Positions 7,727 through 60,699 of a DNA stretch of 64,000 nucleotides are shown here, one piece after another (within the stretch, counting starts at the first letter, position 1; each line of letters starts with the position of its first letter). The notes under the pieces are model-generated. The model was not told where the DNA came from and made no database searches. It saw nothing but the letters and a program-made list of their open reading frames with translations. The translations under genes were made by a program, and so were the position numbers. The stretch comes from Parietichytrium sp. I65-24A (taxonomy: Eukaryota > Sar > Bigyra > Thraustochytrida > Thraustochytriidae): NCBI GenBank assembly GCA_012862575.1, contig BLSF01000067.1:124001-188000 (forward strand), read 5' to 3'.

Positions 7727-10099
7727 ATGGTCAAGTTTGCTGTGACGGTCGCAGTGGCCGGGGCCATCTGCTGCCACGCAAAAGACGTGTGGGAGGACGC
7801 TCCGGATGCTGGGCAGGTTTCGCTACAAGATCTGCGCTCGTGGGCTGACGGTCTAGCGCCTTTCGGCGAACAGCAATTCCAGGATTTTGATGGCACCCGC
7901 GCTGCTAGTCCGGAGGCATGGAGCGACTTGCCCGTGTACCAGGTTTTCACGGACAGGTTCAACAACGGCAACTCTTCCAACGACGAACTCAACCTCCAGG
8001 CCTTCCAAGTCTCCGAGCTCAGCGAAGGCAATTATGGGAAAGTGTACCGGTACAAACATGGCGGCGACATCAAGGGCATTACCGATCGTCTGGACTATAT
8101 GCTGGCTCTCGGTGCGCGCACTGTATTTGCGACCAGTTTTTTGTACAACAATGGCGGCGACTTCCACGGCTATTGCGTGTCCAACCACCTCCGCATCGAC
8201 CCCACGTTTGGAGAACTCTCTGATCTCCAAGTCCTCGTGCGGGAAGCCCACGCCAGAGACATGTACGTGGTGATGGATTTTGTCGTCAACCACGTCTGTG
8301 ACACCTCCACGACCTACAGCGGCACCAGACCGTCGGGTGACGATCATCTTCAGTGCGTCGCCGGTTTGTATGCGCTTGAAAGCGCGGACGCCATCGGAGA
8401 CCAGGGCAACGTCACTGGGAGAGGCGAACTCAGCATTGGCAGCTCCATGTTCTCGCCCTGGAGAAACCAAGACTTCTTCAGCAGATGCGGAACCGGGCTC
8501 GGCAGTGGTGCCGTCGCGGAGGCCATGTTTGGAGACTTTGCGTACACGATGTTTGACCTACAAAGCTCGGTTTATGAAGTACAATACCTCCTCGCCTCCA
8601 TGGCAAAGTACTGGATTGCAGCTGCTGATATCGACGGCTTCCGGCTTGACGCTACCAAGCACACCAGCGATGCCTTGGCCGCCACGTTCAGCACACTCGT
8701 ACGCGATTATGCGTTACAACTTGGAAAGGACAACTTTTATATTATCGGAGAAATCGCCGATGGGCCGTGGTGGCAATCTCGCCAGCTAACCACCATGAGA
8801 AGTGGCTCAGTCTCAACTCAACTGACCAGAGCAACCATCGCATCCTTACAGCCCACCTTTTCCAAGCATCCGACTCAACCTTATCCCGGTTTTACCGCTG
8901 TGTACGATTTCTCGCATGGGCGAACTGCCAGGGCTGTTATGCAAGCGTCATCTTTTCCTGTGGCGCTGGAGACCCTTCTCAGCAGCGACTCGCAGCAGCT
9001 CGTTCGAAGCGCCAAGGAGGACCTAAACTTTTGGGTTCTCGTTGACCAGCATGACTGGGCTCGTTTCCTTGACAAAGGTACTACAGCCTTCCGAACAAAC
9101 AGCGGCGCGGCAGCTCAAGCACACTCCTATATGTTTCTGGCGAAGGGAACCCCACTGATCTATTACGGCTCCGAGCAAGGGTTCAATGGCGACTGCTGGT
9201 GGTCTGCCATGCAAGTCGGGGACGAAGACTCCACCGCGAATGTCCAGGAGCATTGCAGCAATCCAAGCTCCTCGCTTGGGTACCACGACTCCTTATATAG
9301 GCAAACGATGTGGGAAGGTGCTGGGTATAATCTGGGAATGGCTTTCACAGAGCGAGCAGCAAGTCTTGTTCGCATTTCCAAGCCTGGTCCGAACGCATGG
9401 AGCGAGGATTGGAAGAACGACCCTTTCCTCGACTTGGAAAATACCATCACCTTGGCCATTCGCAGGATGTCAATACTTCGGGAGTCGTGCGCTCCACTTC
9501 GCAGAGGGAGTCAGTACTTCCGGTGGGTCGACGACTCTGCCGGCTTACTGGTCTTCTCCAGAATCTACAATGGGGTGGAAATAGTCGTCGTAATGAACAC
9601 AAGATCTGAACCCATCACGATGCCTCAAGACAACTTTTACGTTGATAACGGGATTCTCAGCGTGAGCAACACTTTGAAATTTGTTCAGCTGCTCTCTTCA
9701 TCCGAGGACACCGCATTAGCAGTGCCACAGCAAGGTGGGGGATACAAACTAGATCTCGCCAACAGAGTCATTGAAGGATATACCACCTGGGTGTTTGCAA
9801 GAGAAGACCTGATTTCCGAGGAGCGCGACGCAAGCTTGAACATCCTTCCGTGCAAAACGGAAAAGGCACAAGACGTTGGCAACGAAACCGCAAACGGCGA
9901 CAGTGTTGGCAACAACACGGTGGCGGACGACAACGGTACGGCTGAGTCTTCCAGTAGTGGTGTTGCCGTAGTTGCAGTTGCAGTTGCCGGGTCTGTATTG
10001 ATTGTTGCACTGGGCTCCGCATTTCTGGTTACTAGGCTACGCAAGCCAAGTCAAACCGACCACACGTCGGAAGTGTCGCACAAAATTCCGCCGCTGTAA
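7727..10099 (+). CDS. Membrane-anchored alpha-amylase-family (GH13) protein
   Basis: 790 aa. A signal peptide (MVKFAVTVAVAGAICCHA) is followed by a GH13 (beta/alpha)8 barrel. Visible GH13 signatures are region I DFVVNH (184-189), region II DGFRLDATKH with the nucleophile Asp308, region III IIGEIADG with the acid/base Glu342, and region IV VDQHD with Asp443. The catalytic triad is therefore intact, although the usual Asn of the NHD motif is Gln. A beta-sandwich-like C domain, an Asn/Ser-rich stalk with N-glycosylation sequons, a single TM helix (about 748-772) and a short basic tail follow. This makes it a type I surface or endomembrane enzyme acting on extracytoplasmic alpha-glucans; the exact substrate cannot be told. 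AATAAA lies near 10133. It converges with the DUF697-like gene 122 bp downstream. Confidence 0.9.
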   Translation: MVKFAVTVAVAGAICCHAKDVWEDAPDAGQVSLQDLRSWADGLAPFGEQQFQDFDGTRAASPEAWSDLPVYQVFTDRFNNGNSSNDELNLQAFQVSELSEGNYGKVYRYKHGGDIKGITDRLDYMLALGARTVFATSFLYNNGGDFHGYCVSNHLRIDPTFGELSDLQVLVREAHARDMYVVMDFVVNHVCDTSTTYSGTRPSGDDHLQCVAGLYALESADAIGDQGNVTGRGELSIGSSMFSPWRNQDFFSRCGTGLGSGAVAEAMFGDFAYTMFDLQSSVYEVQYLLASMAKYWIAAADIDGFRLDATKHTSDALAATFSTLVRDYALQLGKDNFYIIGEIADGPWWQSRQLTTMRSGSVSTQLTRATIASLQPTFSKHPTQPYPGFTAVYDFSHGRTARAVMQASSFPVALETLLSSDSQQLVRSAKEDLNFWVLVDQHDWARFLDKGTTAFRTNSGAAAQAHSYMFLAKGTPLIYYGSEQGFNGDCWWSAMQVGDEDSTANVQEHCSNPSSSLGYHDSLYRQTMWEGAGYNLGMAFTERAASLVRISKPGPNAWSEDWKNDPFLDLENTITLAIRRMSILRESCAPLRRGSQYFRWVDDSAGLLVFSRIYNGVEIVVVMNTRSEPITMPQDNFYVDNGILSVSNTLKFVQLLSSSEDTALAVPQQGGGYKLDLANRVIEGYTTWVFAREDLISEERDASLNILPCKTEKAQDVGNETANGDSVGNNTVADDNGTAESSSSGVAVVAVAVAGSVLIVALGSAFLVTRLRKPSQTDHTSEVSHKIPPL

Positions 10100-20406: not shown

Positions 20407-22995
20407 CTATTCGAACAATTTGCACATGTCCTCCAGAGCCTTCGCGAGGTCCTCGGCGAAAGCGTCTGAAGATGTGTTCTCGGCGGAATTCTTGCTGCTG
20501 ATGTGGAAGAAGAACTGGTCCTCCCCAGCAAACATGTAACTCACACCGTAGCCGTCATCAGCCACTGGCCCGAAGCCACCACCAGGGGACACAAAGTTTC
20601 TCGCGACTTCTTTTGGCAAATCCTTTCGAAGGAGGGTCTGATCTTGAGGCTGCTGGGAGGTGGACAAGCGCCAAGGCATAGAAAGGGCCTGGTTCAAAAA
20701 GTCAGAGGATGAGTCAAGACCCTTCGACACAATGTAAAGAGCGAACAAATGACGATCCACTCCTCGGCCAACCATCATAAGCTTGTTCTTCTCGGAATGA
20801 TTCTCCGTTGCGATCTTGAGCTTGCTGATAATCTCCTCGCGCGGTGCGTTTGACTCCATTGCCTGGACAAAGTCGCACGACTCTGCACACAGCGAGCGGG
20901 TTGTCTCAGTACGGCCACCAGCGAAGAGGCGCGTCATACTAGACTCGTAGGTGAGGTCAAAGTGTCCTTGGTTCCTAAAGTATGCCAGCTGCAGAGCCAT
21001 CTGCACGAATCCATCCGGGCTCATGCCATTCTTCTTGATAAATCCCTTGCCATACTCGAGGTGCTCGATCACTCGGAGGTCCACGTCGTTAATCATCTCG
21101 GCGTGGAAGGCCATGGCTTGGTCGATTGCAGCCTGGAGCTCATCATCGATATCCCAGGTCAACCTTCTTGGAACAGGGAGTTCCTTGTTGCGGGCAGCCT
21201 TGGAGCGTTCATTCGATAGAGGGGTAACCATATCGTCAGAGGTCTCGTTTTCGGCGCGCTTTGCGTTCTTAAAGTCAATCAACTCGCTGAGCAGAGTAAA
21301 TTCGTACAAGTGCGCGATAACAGGTGCATCGGCCCAACTGTGCTCGCAGTTGAGTCCAGCGTAGCCGTCCTCGAACACGCACAAGTTGATGCTCTTGTCA
21401 AACCAGCGATTCGTTCCGTTTCCATGGAACAGAGAGCGCGCCACGTCGTCAAGCTTGGAGTAGTGCGTATCCTCGAGAAAGACAATGAATGCGGCGGTTT
21501 CGATGGTTCGGAGGGATCTCTTGTTGATGCCTTCGCTAAAGTACAGATCACGTACTTCTGCCCAGCGGGAGCGAGGACCAGCGGTAAAGGCGGCGATGTT
21601 GGCTCCGCGGCGGGAAGACTTTTGCGGGCCGGAAGCCTGGCTCTCGCCGTTTTTAACAGCGTTCTGGAAGGAAAGCATGCTCGAGGAAGAGGTCATTCGA
21701 CGGCCGTCGCGTTGGCGCATGGAGTCAAGAACGACAAGGTCCTCAAAGGACTGGATGCGGTGTGAGCGGGAGAGGTTTCCGTACGAAGGCTTGCGGGAGG
21801 AAGACAACGAGTTCTTTTGGGACTTGCTGTGCTCCAAGATGAGCTCGAGCTGCTGCTGAATCTCCTCGGTGCTGTAAGGGCGAAGGGCGGTTCCACGTGC
21901 GCCATGGTAGACGTCGAGTTTGTAGTAATGACCGCGGCTGACAACAACAATGTGGCGGGAAAAGTTGGTATGCTTGAGCTCATCACACTCGCGGCCGGGA
22001 ACGCGGGTGGTTCCGAACATGCGCTCATACTGGCGCATGCAAAGCGGAATCATTCCTCGGATGGTCATTGGCTCCAGAGTCTCGTTCTCGACCATGTCTT
22101 TGAAGCGGAGAAAGTGGTGGCAAATTCCAGCGGCACGCAGGCATTGATTGTCAGTTGGGCGGTTCTTCGAATCCAGGACGTAGTAGTTGGAGTTCACAGC
22201 GATTGGGGTGCGGCCATACAGATAGCAGTACTTTTCCCACCAGTCCAACACGTAGTTGCGCGAGAACATGTGCTTGAGACGGAGGTAACGCTGGAACTTC
22301 TTTCCCTCGTTGGCCATAAACTTTTCGCTGAGCTGAACAGTGGTGCTGAATTCTTCCTCGGTGAGCAGTGGGCGAACAGATTCGAGCCACTTTTCGCAAG
22401 TTTCCTTGAGACTAGGGAGAGGCAAAGTTGGCAAGCTCGAGTCGTACGCGTACGTGAGGTTCTTGCGGCCAGTCAAAAGCTTCACTCCTGCTCCCCAGAG
22501 GTTGAGCATCGCCTTTCCAAATTTGGACGATGCTCCGAAGAGCCATCCCTGCCAGCTAAGAAGAAGCTTGAGAGCAAAGCGTTCAACAGACACGATTCCG
22601 AGCACGCCGAGGAACGACGCTGCGGATGCAAGATAGCCCACCCTGAAGGAAGTAGGATAGTTGTCGTGGATTGGATTGAACCGTCCTAGCTTGGTATCCA
22701 GCTCCCAGAGCATCTCGGCGAGCCACCCGCTGCGAACCCAGCTGTCGCCTTGCGCGTTCACCACAACGTACGTCACACCGCCCATGACGGCCAGCAACGT
22801 GGCAGGGGTAGCAGGCCACAAGGTATGCATCATGGCATGCTTGAGCCTCCTGGCATAGTTGGACGCCTGGCTCACCAACACCGGCAGCGAAGGGACCTTC
22901 ACCGTCACCGTGTAGTACCCTTCATAATCCGGCCCCAGGTTGACCCCCCGCTTCTGCAGGTAGTACAGATCGATAGCATTGCGTGCTTCCGCCAT
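20407..22995 (-). CDS. CPT1: Carnitine O-palmitoyltransferase, CPT1-like outer-membrane form
   Basis: 862 aa choline/carnitine acyltransferase, which transfers long-chain acyl groups from CoA to carnitine for import into mitochondria. As in animal CPT1, two N-terminal TM helices (about 62-80 and 118-140) precede the catalytic domain. Catalytic His552 lies in GLNCEHSWADAPVIAHLYEF, after NRWFDKSINLCVFED. The carnitine/CoA side shows YGKGFIKKNGMSPDGFVQMA, and GRTETTRSLCAESCDF holds the usual TETxR-type motif. Odd feature: residues about 392-465 form a Ser/Arg-rich insertion absent from animal CPT1 between the carnitine-side and catalytic halves (for example SLSSSRKPSYGNLSRSHRIQ), with basophilic kinase-like R-x-x-S sites, suggesting a regulatory loop. 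Single exon. Confidence 0.92.
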   Translation of the reverse strand: MAEARNAIDLYYLQKRGVNLGPDYEGYYTVTVKVPSLPVLVSQASNYARRLKHAMMHTLWPATPATLLAVMGGVTYVVVNAQGDSWVRSGWLAEMLWELDTKLGRFNPIHDNYPTSFRVGYLASAASFLGVLGIVSVERFALKLLLSWQGWLFGASSKFGKAMLNLWGAGVKLLTGRKNLTYAYDSSLPTLPLPSLKETCEKWLESVRPLLTEEEFSTTVQLSEKFMANEGKKFQRYLRLKHMFSRNYVLDWWEKYCYLYGRTPIAVNSNYYVLDSKNRPTDNQCLRAAGICHHFLRFKDMVENETLEPMTIRGMIPLCMRQYERMFGTTRVPGRECDELKHTNFSRHIVVVSRGHYYKLDVYHGARGTALRPYSTEEIQQQLELILEHSKSQKNSLSSSRKPSYGNLSRSHRIQSFEDLVVLDSMRQRDGRRMTSSSSMLSFQNAVKNGESQASGPQKSSRRGANIAAFTAGPRSRWAEVRDLYFSEGINKRSLRTIETAAFIVFLEDTHYSKLDDVARSLFHGNGTNRWFDKSINLCVFEDGYAGLNCEHSWADAPVIAHLYEFTLLSELIDFKNAKRAENETSDDMVTPLSNERSKAARNKELPVPRRLTWDIDDELQAAIDQAMAFHAEMINDVDLRVIEHLEYGKGFIKKNGMSPDGFVQMALQLAYFRNQGHFDLTYESSMTRLFAGGRTETTRSLCAESCDFVQAMESNAPREEIISKLKIATENHSEKNKLMMVGRGVDRHLFALYIVSKGLDSSSDFLNQALSMPWRLSTSQQPQDQTLLRKDLPKEVARNFVSPGGGFGPVADDGYGVSYMFAGEDQFFFHISSKNSAENTSSDAFAEDLAKALEDMCKLFE

Positions 22996-46572: not shown

Positions 46573-48264
46573 TCAGTCGATGTTTGCAATGTGCTGTTGT
46601 CCCTTGTATTTGTCATGCGCGACGAAGGTGAAGACAGTTTCGTTAGTGGATGCGCTCCGAGCGACGAAGCGATGGCCATGGTACGTCGTCATCGGAGAAG
46701 ATTCCCCTGGCTGAATTTGATTTTGATAGTACATCTCCTCGGTGCCGTCGTCCCAGAAAAGATTAATTGGCTCGTCTCGGTTGTTGCGGAATTGAAGTTG
46801 AATGGATTGGTGATCTGGTGCAGGTCGCTGGTCCTTTGCCTTGTCCTTTCCTATCTTTGGGCGATTCCACAACCAAACGTTGGCACTCCACTTGACCCCT
46901 TTAATGACGGGGCAGCCACCGTGAAGTGAGAATGCATCAAGGGAGGAGTCAGCGCCTTGGTTGTAGAAAAGAATTGCACCTCCACGGGTTGTCGAGCTCC
47001 GAAGGGCTGTAGAAGACGTGTTGCACGCCCATTGAGCGTCACTGTTTGCAATATACCCGGCGGTCTTTTCAGTCCCAGGATGCACAATCTGCTCTCCATT
47101 GTATCCGGCGTGGGTTTTTGAGAGGGGAAATACCGTGTGACCGCCCTCCTCGACGTCAGTTAGGTAGACAAACACAGTTGCAAACCGGTTTGTTCCGTTG
47201 TTGATGACCGGGTCGTGACCGTCGTAAGCAGATGCGTCGAACCAGTCGGTGTGTGGTTTGTACCACTCTGAGACGTTGTACCGCAGCACCTGCAGGGCAT
47301 CGGCCATTTCATTATCGAATGGAAGGCGAGCAAGATCGAAAGACCTCCTGCGAACACGGCGCGCTGCCCAGCTGTTGAAGTCCCATGATGTACTGGAGTT
47401 CCGTGTGTTGTCACGCCATCCGCTGAATCCCACCTCGCTTGGTTTAACAAGCTCTTGGTTGTGTCCAAGAATTGCATCAATCTCCTCGTCTGTAATGAAG
47501 TTTTCAACCTGAAATACCCGAGGGGAGCCCGACAGCTGCTTCATTCTAATTGGCTTCCCTGGAATCGGACTTGGAAGGTGCGGGAAAATAACATTCCCGA
47601 TCTCAACATATGGATACACAAATTGGATGCCTTGAGGAACAGTGAAGAGCTTGGTTCCGTTCGCGACCTCCATAAAGGAGAAAATCCTTCTTCCATTTTC
47701 GGTGAAAAGCCGGGCGCCGTTTTCTGGATTGCAGATCTCTCGCAGAGTTTCATTGTTCTCCTTTGCTACATCCATCGCTTCTGGGAGCTCTAGACACGTT
47801 GAGAAAATCATCTCATCCAAGTTGGCCCACTCTGCGCTTGTGGACTCGATGCCACTCGCACTGTTTGCGTCTCCATTATAGTACACTGTGAAGGTGACGG
47901 GAAACTCTGGCATCTCGCTCTGTGAATAGTGTGAGCGGACATCCTCACTCATGTCCTCCTCCTCGATGGGGCTCCCCATCGGAGCATTATTTTGCAAGCT
48001 GGCAAGCTTCGCCCAGTTGCGGGCAGATCTCGTCTGAGCGCGAAACCCATTCTCATCCCAAAACGCGAGGGCAACGGCGACCAATCCGACAAGTACCCCT
48101 CCGAGCGCAAGGAGTTTAAGATTCTTGTCGTTGGTTCTCTCACAACTTTGTTCGCTCTCGACACTCTTTGCAGGTTCCGGGGTCTCCACGGTCTCCACGG
48201 TCGGGAGACTCTCGTCAACCGGGGTAATGGTCTCCATTTGCTCTAGGGCTTCTTCAGGACTCAT
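46573..48264 (-). CDS. Membrane-anchored prolyl 4-hydroxylase fused to a C-terminal pVHL-like beta domain
   Basis: 563 aa. An acidic N-terminus precedes one TM helix (about 49-68, LKLLALGGVLVGLVAVALAF), as in type II ER/Golgi prolyl hydroxylases. The 2-oxoglutarate/Fe(II) domain at about 245-470 has WYKPHTDWFDA (His338, Asp340), EEGGHTVFPLSKTHAG, distal His448 in HGGCPVIKGVKWSANVWLW, and Lys458 for 2-oxoglutarate. All metal and co-substrate residues are present. Residues about 487-560 resemble the beta domain of the von Hippel-Lindau protein: QLQFRNNRDEPINLFWDDGT, then PGESSPMTTYHGHRFVA. Aligned with human pVHL, Tyr98 matches Tyr512, Ser111 matches Thr527, Tyr112 matches Tyr528, His115 matches His531 and Trp117 matches Phe533. 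In pVHL these positions bind hydroxyproline. No alpha (elongin C-binding) domain follows. The enzyme may thus bind its own product. Confidence 0.85.
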   Translation of the reverse strand: MSPEEALEQMETITPVDESLPTVETVETPEPAKSVESEQSCERTNDKNLKLLALGGVLVGLVAVALAFWDENGFRAQTRSARNWAKLASLQNNAPMGSPIEEEDMSEDVRSHYSQSEMPEFPVTFTVYYNGDANSASGIESTSAEWANLDEMIFSTCLELPEAMDVAKENNETLREICNPENGARLFTENGRRIFSFMEVANGTKLFTVPQGIQFVYPYVEIGNVIFPHLPSPIPGKPIRMKQLSGSPRVFQVENFITDEEIDAILGHNQELVKPSEVGFSGWRDNTRNSSTSWDFNSWAARRVRRRSFDLARLPFDNEMADALQVLRYNVSEWYKPHTDWFDASAYDGHDPVINNGTNRFATVFVYLTDVEEGGHTVFPLSKTHAGYNGEQIVHPGTEKTAGYIANSDAQWACNTSSTALRSSTTRGGAILFYNQGADSSLDAFSLHGGCPVIKGVKWSANVWLWNRPKIGKDKAKDQRPAPDHQSIQLQFRNNRDEPINLFWDDGTEEMYYQNQIQPGESSPMTTYHGHRFVARSASTNETVFTFVAHDKYKGQQHIANID

Positions 48265-58194: not shown

Positions 58195-60699
58195 ATGCGG
58201 TCTCTTCTGCTGCGAGTTGCAGCGGGAATGGCCGGGGCCCTGAGTCTGACTCATGCGCAGGATCAGAAAGTACTTCGTATTGGGATCGCGCAACAAAAGA
58301 CCGGAACCCTAAGCTGGATTGGAGATGATCTTCAGCTAACTCTTGACATATGGAGGGAGTACCTGGCGACAACCGGAGTCCTTTCAGATATCGGCTTAGA
58401 ACTGGAGTTTGTTTCCATGGACACCGAGAGCGATCTTGATTTGGCGGAGAACATCACCCATCGGCTAATTCAAGAGGAGCAAGTAGATTTAATAATTTGT
58501 CCTGGCTCCGCGGAGTGCGAGTTCTGCGCCATTGCTGTGGAAGAATATGATGTCCTCGCCCTGGCATCCGCCTGCGGAGTAGTAGCGCGTTGCCCTCAAT
58601 CCGCTGATCTTCTGGCAAACTTCCCACCATGTACAAAACCTTGGGAGCGACGATTCGAGAACACCTTTGTAGTGCATCCTGCTGTCGAGTCGTATTTTGA
58701 AGAGGCTATTCGGTTAGCCAAGCTCGGAGGTGCAGAAACAATTGCCTTCATCGGCTTTGACCCGTATCTTACCCTGCCGAACCTGGGATTTCTCCACCTG
58801 CAAGCTTTCGCGGAGGACTCAGGCATGGAAGTCGTTTACTCCACTGACCTCCCTGATATCACCGAGGACCCAAATTATACACTTCCTGAGCTGATAGATA
58901 ACCATCTCTCTACTCTTGATCCTGACATGGTGGTGATGATGCCTCCAAACGAGGAAGCTTGTCGGCAGATCATTACTTGGTTCAAAGCTAAAAACTACCT
59001 CCCGCGCGCGCTGTCGCTTATTAACTGTCTATCCTTCGCGAGTCTCACCGAAACCCTGGGGAATGATATTGCCTTTGTGACGACGCCGTTTCAGTGGCAC
59101 AAGCATCTTCAAGGTGAAGATTTTCGAGAATTGGACGGGATGAAGTGGTCCATGTTTCCCGAAACGCAGAACACCACCACCTCGGCCATGCAGTTTGAGC
59201 TTTTGTACGAAGAACGTACAGGACAGGAAGCCCATTATTTGTCCGCAAGCGCGATGGCTTTGTGGGCCTTTCTACAATCAGCGCTGCTTTCTCTCACTGA
59301 GGCAGAGTTGAGTTCTTTAAATAGCGACAATTTGCGTCGCGGATTTGGCCGAGTCCAGCAATCTAGTTTTTACGGGCCTCTTTTCGTCGGAGCTCAGGGA
59401 ACCAACGACATCAAGCCCATGGCATTGGTGCAGAGTTTTCCCAAGATGCTTCAAGACTCCGTCGGGAAACAGACCTCCAGTTCAAACAGCTATGAATACG
59501 GGAATATCCAGGAGGAAGCAAACTCGAACATCTATCAAGGCACGTACTCGGCACTTCTCATTAGTCCCCTGGACTCGAGCGAGATTGAGTTTGTATATCC
59601 TATGCCACACTGGGATGAGAGAACGCACTCTCCCTCCATCTTCAACTCATCGGAAGAAATTGCAGTCCTCACCACTGTCTGTGTTGCGTCGGCCCTTCTG
59701 ATCCTCATTGCTGTTGCCATTTACACGCACCAGGATATCCCGCAAATCCGATACTCCTCCGTGCCCTTCACTCTGATTACAACTCTGTCACCCATCATAA
59801 TATTTGCCGGAATCCTGTGCACTGGGCTCGAGGTGAATCAGGCAATGTGCTGGTTTAGGCCGTGGCTACTTACTCTTGGTCCGCTTCTCTTTCTGACCCC
59901 GATATTGACGAAAACCTACAGAATTCACGTCATCGACAGAAGTGCGCGTCATTTCAAACTCGTCAAAGTGACTAATCTCGATGTAGGGAAGTGGATTGTC
60001 GCGCTGCTCGTCCCGCAGATCGTCATTAACATCATTTGGGTCATCGTTCGGCCCCCCATCCTTGAAGTTTATGTTCAAGACCCCTTGCGCCCGGTCAACA
60101 ACTACTACCAATGCCCATTGGATACGGCCTTTCTTTCCGTCTCCTGCGCATACATCGGACTTTTCTATATGTTGTCTTTGCTCGCTGCGCTGGAGTCGAG
60201 AAAATTTTGGAAGGAGTTCAACGACGCCAAGGCTCTCTCGAACGCGATGTTCGTTTTGCTCATCGGTGTGATCTTTGTTGTGTCCATCGGCATTGCTGAC
60301 GACCGCCACGCTGTCTACCTTGGTCAGAGTCTCGGCGTGGTCGTTACGATGCTCGGCGCAACGGCAACCTTGCTTGCCTATCAGCTGTTGGAGGTGTCTA
60401 CAAAAAGTATCAACGAGTTCAGAACGCGGTCGAGCGACCGAGATTCCTCGGACAAGGCACAGCCTGACTCCTCATCCTTCACTTTTCCTGAGGACCCTAC
60501 CAAGTGCTCCAAGTGCAAGGTCAACGACCCTGCTTATTGCGCTGGATGCTACAACAACATTATGTATCTCGGCACGGCAGGCTCCATCGAGGAGACCGCA
60601 GTCGAAACGAGCGAGTTACACACCGACACAACATCCACTGGGTCTACTCAACGGAGCAACCTTACAGAAGTTCAGCCAACTGCTCTTCAGACGGTGTAG
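58195..60699 (+). CDS. Class C (GABA-B-like) G-protein-coupled receptor
   Basis: 834 aa. Signal peptide MRSLLLRVAAGMAGALSLTHA. A periplasmic-binding-protein-like (ANF receptor) ectodomain covers about 25-420 (KVLRIGIAQQKTGTLSWIGD; QVDLIICPGSAECEFCAIAV; GGAETIAFIGFDPYLTLPNL) with several Asn-linked glycosylation sites. A 7TM_3 domain at about 485-750 begins AVLTTVCVASALLILIAVAI; a conserved Cys pair is likely Cys543 (TM3 region, MCWFRPWLLTLGPLLFLTPI) with YYQCPLD in loop 2. There is no Cys-rich linker, as in GABA-B and unlike glutamate receptors. The cytosolic tail has CSKCKVNDPAYCAGC, a possible zinc knuckle, and Ser/Thr-rich ends. It senses an extracellular small molecule and signals through G proteins; the ligand is unknown. 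Single exon. Confidence 0.9.
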   Translation: MRSLLLRVAAGMAGALSLTHAQDQKVLRIGIAQQKTGTLSWIGDDLQLTLDIWREYLATTGVLSDIGLELEFVSMDTESDLDLAENITHRLIQEEQVDLIICPGSAECEFCAIAVEEYDVLALASACGVVARCPQSADLLANFPPCTKPWERRFENTFVVHPAVESYFEEAIRLAKLGGAETIAFIGFDPYLTLPNLGFLHLQAFAEDSGMEVVYSTDLPDITEDPNYTLPELIDNHLSTLDPDMVVMMPPNEEACRQIITWFKAKNYLPRALSLINCLSFASLTETLGNDIAFVTTPFQWHKHLQGEDFRELDGMKWSMFPETQNTTTSAMQFELLYEERTGQEAHYLSASAMALWAFLQSALLSLTEAELSSLNSDNLRRGFGRVQQSSFYGPLFVGAQGTNDIKPMALVQSFPKMLQDSVGKQTSSSNSYEYGNIQEEANSNIYQGTYSALLISPLDSSEIEFVYPMPHWDERTHSPSIFNSSEEIAVLTTVCVASALLILIAVAIYTHQDIPQIRYSSVPFTLITTLSPIIIFAGILCTGLEVNQAMCWFRPWLLTLGPLLFLTPILTKTYRIHVIDRSARHFKLVKVTNLDVGKWIVALLVPQIVINIIWVIVRPPILEVYVQDPLRPVNNYYQCPLDTAFLSVSCAYIGLFYMLSLLAALESRKFWKEFNDAKALSNAMFVLLIGVIFVVSIGIADDRHAVYLGQSLGVVVTMLGATATLLAYQLLEVSTKSINEFRTRSSDRDSSDKAQPDSSSFTFPEDPTKCSKCKVNDPAYCAGCYNNIMYLGTAGSIEETAVETSELHTDTTSTGSTQRSNLTEVQPTALQTV

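Follow-up and report, generated by a model that had tools for sequence, protein, structure and literature searches.

The window analysed here, 64,000 nucleotides of the thraustochytrid Parietichytrium sp. I65-24A (contig BLSF01000067.1, positions 124,001 to 188,000), contains on its minus strand a gene for a predicted prolyl 4-hydroxylase (P4H) that ends in a beta domain of the type found in pVHL, the von Hippel-Lindau protein. The pairing recurs in relatives of this protein and, in the opposite domain order, in a second P4H family, which represents new support for a functional link between the two domains. With moderate confidence, we read the protein as a P4H whose pVHL-type domain would act as an ancillary polypeptide-binding module favouring repeated hydroxylation. 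An earlier note, made from the sequence of the window, had gone further and proposed that the enzyme could bind its own hydroxyproline product. That interpretation is supported in part, namely in the fusion, an anchor-like segment, the lack of an alpha domain and the occurrence of the VHL fold outside animals.

A P4H ending in a pVHL-type beta domain

The gene is a single complete open reading frame (ORF; 46573–48264, minus strand, as are all its features given below) encoding 563 amino acids, with an ATG start preceded by an in-frame stop, and alignments with relatives cover up to 95% of the protein. Near the N-terminus, residues 51–69 (48058–48114) form a hydrophobic segment (Kyte-Doolittle mean of 2.5 over 19 residues), whose hydrophobicity suggests a signal anchor. 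The membrane anchor proposed in the earlier note is retained as an anchor-like segment, its topology being a suggestion from hydrophobicity, and the P4H domain would lie in the lumen of the secretory pathway.

The catalytic domain, at about residues 243–471 (46852–47538), matches both the Pfam family PF13640 (E 2.4e-11, above the Pfam cut-off) and the P4H structure PDB 2jig (E 6.9e-26). The iron ligands of the HxD...H motif are His338, Asp340 and His448, and the lysine binding 2-oxoglutarate is Lys458, exactly the complete active site that had been proposed. Among 35 aligned sequences, His338 and Asp340 are invariant, and His448 and Lys458 are kept in at least 90%. Profile and catalytic residues together predict a P4H of the 2-oxoglutarate-Fe(II) (2OG) oxygenase type. 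An NCBIfam scan gave no match. Upstream of the catalytic domain, residues about 120–225 (47590–47907) are conserved in relatives with the pattern GARLF...G.R..SF...VPQG; no Pfam model matches this region, which looks doublecortin-like by eye.

The C-terminal part, at about residues 479–563 (46576–46830), takes the pVHL beta-sandwich fold at high confidence, is 24% identical to the pVHL structure 1vcb, and contains the equivalent of pVHL residues 69–152. The elongin-C-binding alpha domain is absent, as had been stated, the protein stopping at residue 563, the equivalent of pVHL 152. The Pfam VHL model (PF01847) gives the window protein 18.9 bits for a cut-off of 21 bits, with 21.1 bits in a genome-wide search, and matches 7 of 35 family members at E ≤ 10. 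A single-sequence search of the PDB with the 80-residue domain returned no pVHL but a viral coat protein alone (E 0.66), and a protein-database search with residues 478–563 gave five candidates and two matches, both already known. Specificity was controlled with a 23-row profile. It picked up three proteins at E ≤ 1 (the best at 0.32) from a set of 338 with reversed or shuffled sequences; among 495 ORFs of the window, the same profile matched the window protein's own and one other, at 0.017. What the earlier note had observed, a pVHL-type domain behind the P4H, is confirmed, with a correction at one residue (below).

Residues at the pVHL pocket positions

According to PMC9528729, the hydroxyproline bound by pVHL lies among Trp88, Tyr98, His110, Ser111, His115 and Trp117, with Ser111 and His115 bonding its hydroxyl and Tyr98 its carbonyl. 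Trp88, Tyr98, Ile109, Ser111, His115 and Trp117 are described as almost invariant in vertebrates and invertebrates in PMC6650433. An ungapped alignment of the window protein to pVHL retains Asn78, Trp88, Tyr112 and His115. The equivalents of Trp88, Ser111 and His115 are Trp504 (46753–46755; Trp in 37 of 40 family members, with one Tyr and two gaps), Thr527 (Thr for Ser) and His531, the last two within the motif Thr527-Tyr-His-Gly-His531-Arg-Phe533 (46666–46686; pVHL 111–117). Two pocket residues of pVHL are not kept: Phe533 stands for Trp117, and Gln514 (46723–46725), the residue of 33 of the 40 family members, for Tyr98. Hence, whereas the earlier note was right about the equivalents of Tyr112 and His115 and about changes at Ser111 and Trp117, its claim that Tyr98 is kept is not borne out, since that position holds Gln514.

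When 72 columns are ranked by conservation across 40 domains of the family, the first seven correspond to His115 (rank 1), Trp88 (2), Trp117 (Phe in this family; 3), Tyr112, Asn78, Ser111 (Thr or Ser; 6) and Tyr98 (Gln; 7), followed at ranks 11 and 12 by those of Ile109 and His110, the latter being His in 1 of 40. Position 115 is His and position 117 Phe in 40/40, and position 111 is Thr in 34 and Ser in 6. When five columns were drawn at random 200,000 times, no draw was as conserved as the five pocket positions (88, 98, 111, 115 and 117), a figure that is generous because the measure favours aromatic and His columns generally. The reason for this conservation could lie in the structure of the domain or in a different ligand.

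Recurrence of the pairing and spread of the domain

The search for the same architecture in relatives, also suggested in the earlier note, was productive. The family comprises 49 proteins, of which the window protein is one, and a 15-sequence profile detects the VHL-like domain in 40 of them at E ≤ 0.001. Twenty-five of these 40 lie outside the search profile, and a domain profile, A1, was made from 23 of the 40 domains. The E-values behind these counts, and behind those for ShKT-type P4Hs and the domains of the own genome below, refer to small sets (49 or 120 sequences). Among the nine members where no domain was called, all excluded from the conservation ranking on these grounds, five stop short of the domain (P0016, P0038, P0040, P0041 and P0042) and P0024 stops within it, the tails of P0034 and P0043 are odd, and P0049 has a different C-terminus. 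Named relatives include an Aurantiochytrium entry, Hondaea and Aureococcus, the closest being thraustochytrids; P0010 is labelled Durusdinium trenchii, a dinoflagellate, and P0030 Batrachochytrium salamandrivorans, a fungus, our guess being that these may be foreign DNA in the assemblies. Precomputed Pfam annotation gives the P4H/VHL pair for one relative, P0032, and therefore databases may display the pairing without comment. In searches confined to open-licence PMC text, judged from listings and the beginnings of abstracts, we recognised no description of a P4H–VHL fusion.

Ten VHL-like places, a lower bound, were found in the Parietichytrium genome. Four belong to P4H genes (contigs C67, that of the window, C127, C58 and C37), three to 2OG-like proteins on C30 and C49, and the others to an aldo-keto reductase (AKR; C13), an AdoMetDC/spermidine synthase (AdoMetDC/SpdSyn; C21) and a protein of no assigned kind (C5). 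In three of the ten (C67, C127 and C58), the domain and a PF13640 match are encoded by the same uninterrupted frame. The C127 protein is a paralog of the window protein with the same architecture and 58% identity over residues 111–561. On C37 (L022), an N-terminal VHL-like stretch precedes an apparent start of a P4H domain in its ORF; two stops, which may reflect introns, interrupt the PF13640 match there, and no such match is obtained from the ORF by itself. The proteins of C30 (L023) and C49 (L037) have a C-terminal VHL-like domain and an HxD...H pattern of 2OG type by eye, though no Pfam 2OG family was found in the pieces scanned, and the one C49 protein tried had no PDB match. The domain is also C-terminal in the AKR (L005) and the AdoMetDC/SpdSyn (L004), and occurs in the C5 ORF (L001). 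The pattern Thr-[Tyr/Phe]-x-x-His-x-[Phe/Trp] follows a Trp in 9 of the 10 places, in a scan that prefers motifs with His, and the family residue counts above were taken from the alignment instead; at one place on C49 (C49b), the open frame ends before the motif, and what is left of the domain is matched in a different frame.

The P4H of C58 (L010) represents the second architecture. Behind a hydrophobic segment, its single ORF encodes first the VHL-like domain, next a ShK domain and last the P4H domain, so that the VHL-like domain is N-terminal, the opposite of the window protein. Among the 120 relatives of C58 listed out of 268 matches, on which all counts for this type rest, 45 have the N-terminal domain at E ≤ 1e-4, including entries named Hondaea, Rhizochromulina and Amorphochlora. 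This N-terminal domain was detected with a profile of the C-terminal type, and profiles of the two types match at 98.9%. A profile of C58 and 12 of the 45 domains, selected by us (A5), finds pVHL in 24 of its 26 PDB matches (best E 0.04). The 45 domains have Trp88 in 44, Thr/Ser111 in 45, His115 in 43 and Phe117 in 42.

VHL-type domains also occur in bacteria: in the one phylum sampled, PF01847 matches in 11 of 386 genomes. Ten of these proteins (L122–L130 and L132, leaving out L131 for an internal stop) have Trp88 in 10/10, Thr/Ser111 in 10/10, His115 in 9/10, Trp117 in 9/10 and Tyr98 in 7/10. Their profile finds pVHL at E 1.2e-10 and the profile of the P4H-fused domains at 97.4%, and some of them have the pVHL-like start LRSxNS. 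Several appear secreted or lipoprotein-like by eye, and nine scanned proteins contained no P4H, one having a CAP domain. The earlier suggestion of an older use of the VHL fold stands to the extent that the fold is used outside animals, in protists and bacteria. Searching bacterial and archaeal contigs with the domain alone gave 35 pattern-matching stretches, none of which was confirmed; in viral contigs, four P4H relatives match over residues 250–465 only, and the ShKT type gave no pattern match.

Among ten ORFs scanned, other genes of the window seem ordinary, those at 448–2130, 7727–10099, 20407–22995 and 58195–60699 looking like a class I (M) tRNA synthetase, an alpha-amylase, a carnitine acyltransferase and a class-3 G-protein-coupled receptor, respectively.

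Possible roles and comparison with known systems

The protein would be a secretory-pathway P4H, tethered by its N-terminal membrane segment, in which the pVHL-type domain serves as a polypeptide-binding module near the catalytic domain. This module may hold a proline-rich substrate, perhaps by taking up prolines that have already been hydroxylated in its counterpart of the pVHL pocket, and holding the substrate there would favour repeated hydroxylation of one chain. We prefer the holding of substrate or product as an explanation since the pairing with P4H recurs in two orders; hydroxyproline specificity of the domain is possible, albeit doubtful.

Several findings weigh against this account. 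The position of Tyr98 is Tyr in 1 and Gln in 33 of the 40 domains. The AKR, AdoMetDC/SpdSyn and C5 proteins carry the pocket signature as well, and so do the bacterial ones, in all cases without a known hydroxyproline partner, and the P4H-fused pocket resembles that of pVHL less than the bacterial pockets do. Among the 120 listed ShKT-type relatives, 75 do not reach the 1e-4 threshold. Of these 75, four give weaker matches, and 29 have at most 80 residues ahead of the ShK-type motif, which leaves little room for the domain. No VHL-like domain was seen in the ShKT-type paralog of the own genome on C39. The Pfam VHL model, which is less sensitive for the N-terminal type, names the domain in one of ten relatives tried (E 0.12) and not in C58.

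Since it is shared by AKR, AdoMetDC/SpdSyn, C5 and bacterial domains, the pocket signature belongs to the domain family at large; either it is structural, or it goes back to an old ancestral ligand, which may be hydroxyproline or something else. The domain might accordingly be a generic mobile beta-sandwich module, serving stability, partner binding or localisation in the P4Hs, with a Trp/Thr/His/Phe cluster that is structural or meant for another ligand and has no preference for hydroxyproline. We regard this as a serious competitor, although somewhat improbable. The same cluster is kept next to unrelated partners, as it would predict, but repeated pairing with P4H, in two orders and two subfamilies, is unexpected for an indifferent module. 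Moreover, bacteria also possess P4Hs, so a hydroxyproline ligand is conceivable there too.

The strong form of the earlier proposal, a true pVHL-like reader with which the enzyme retains or counts its own product, is in our judgement unlikely. It agrees with Thr/Ser111 and His115 in 40/40 domains and with the P4H partner in two architectures, but Tyr98 is lost, Trp117 is replaced by Phe, and the signature is not confined to P4H partners. More speculative still, and rather improbable, would be a history in which a hydroxyproline reader of VHL type was added to protist P4Hs on no fewer than two occasions, once at either end, as an ancient write-and-read partnership that animals later split into PHD and pVHL, adding the alpha domain for ubiquitin ligation. 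Chance similarity or a gene-model artefact, in which the tail would be unrelated to VHL, might be read into the Pfam score just under the cut-off and the single-sequence search without pVHL, but is almost certainly wrong judging from the reversed or shuffled proteins and the window ORFs.

To our knowledge, the origin of pVHL before animals is unclear, and we know of hardly any hydroxyproline readers outside the HIF pathway. P4Hs that contain a VHL-type domain of their own, in either of two orders, are a directly testable system for asking whether the VHL fold binds hydroxyproline outside animals and whether its recognition arose together with the hydroxylase, and the bacterial and protist domains allow pocket residues to be compared without elongins.

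In comparison with pVHL (PF01847; PDB 1vcb and 1lm8), which has Tyr98, Trp117 and the elongin-C-binding alpha domain, the window domain has Gln and Phe, lacks the alpha domain and is fused to a P4H. The Litorilituus protein of PMC9002001 and the bacterial proteins L122–L132 belong to the same domain family and have the same pocket signature, but the latter are closer to pVHL and, in the nine scanned, have no P4H.

On the enzyme side, the P4Hs of known structure (2jig and the transmembrane P4H 6tp5) resemble the window protein in the catalytic domain and its HxD...H...K residues, matching residues 242–470 at most, with the VHL-like tail outside the match. The collagen P4H alpha subunit (catalytic relative 7zsc) shares the arrangement proposed here, a P4H with a separate polypeptide-holding domain; its peptide-substrate-binding domain, however, is made of helices and precedes the catalytic domain, whereas the candidate holding domain of the window protein is a VHL-type beta sandwich.
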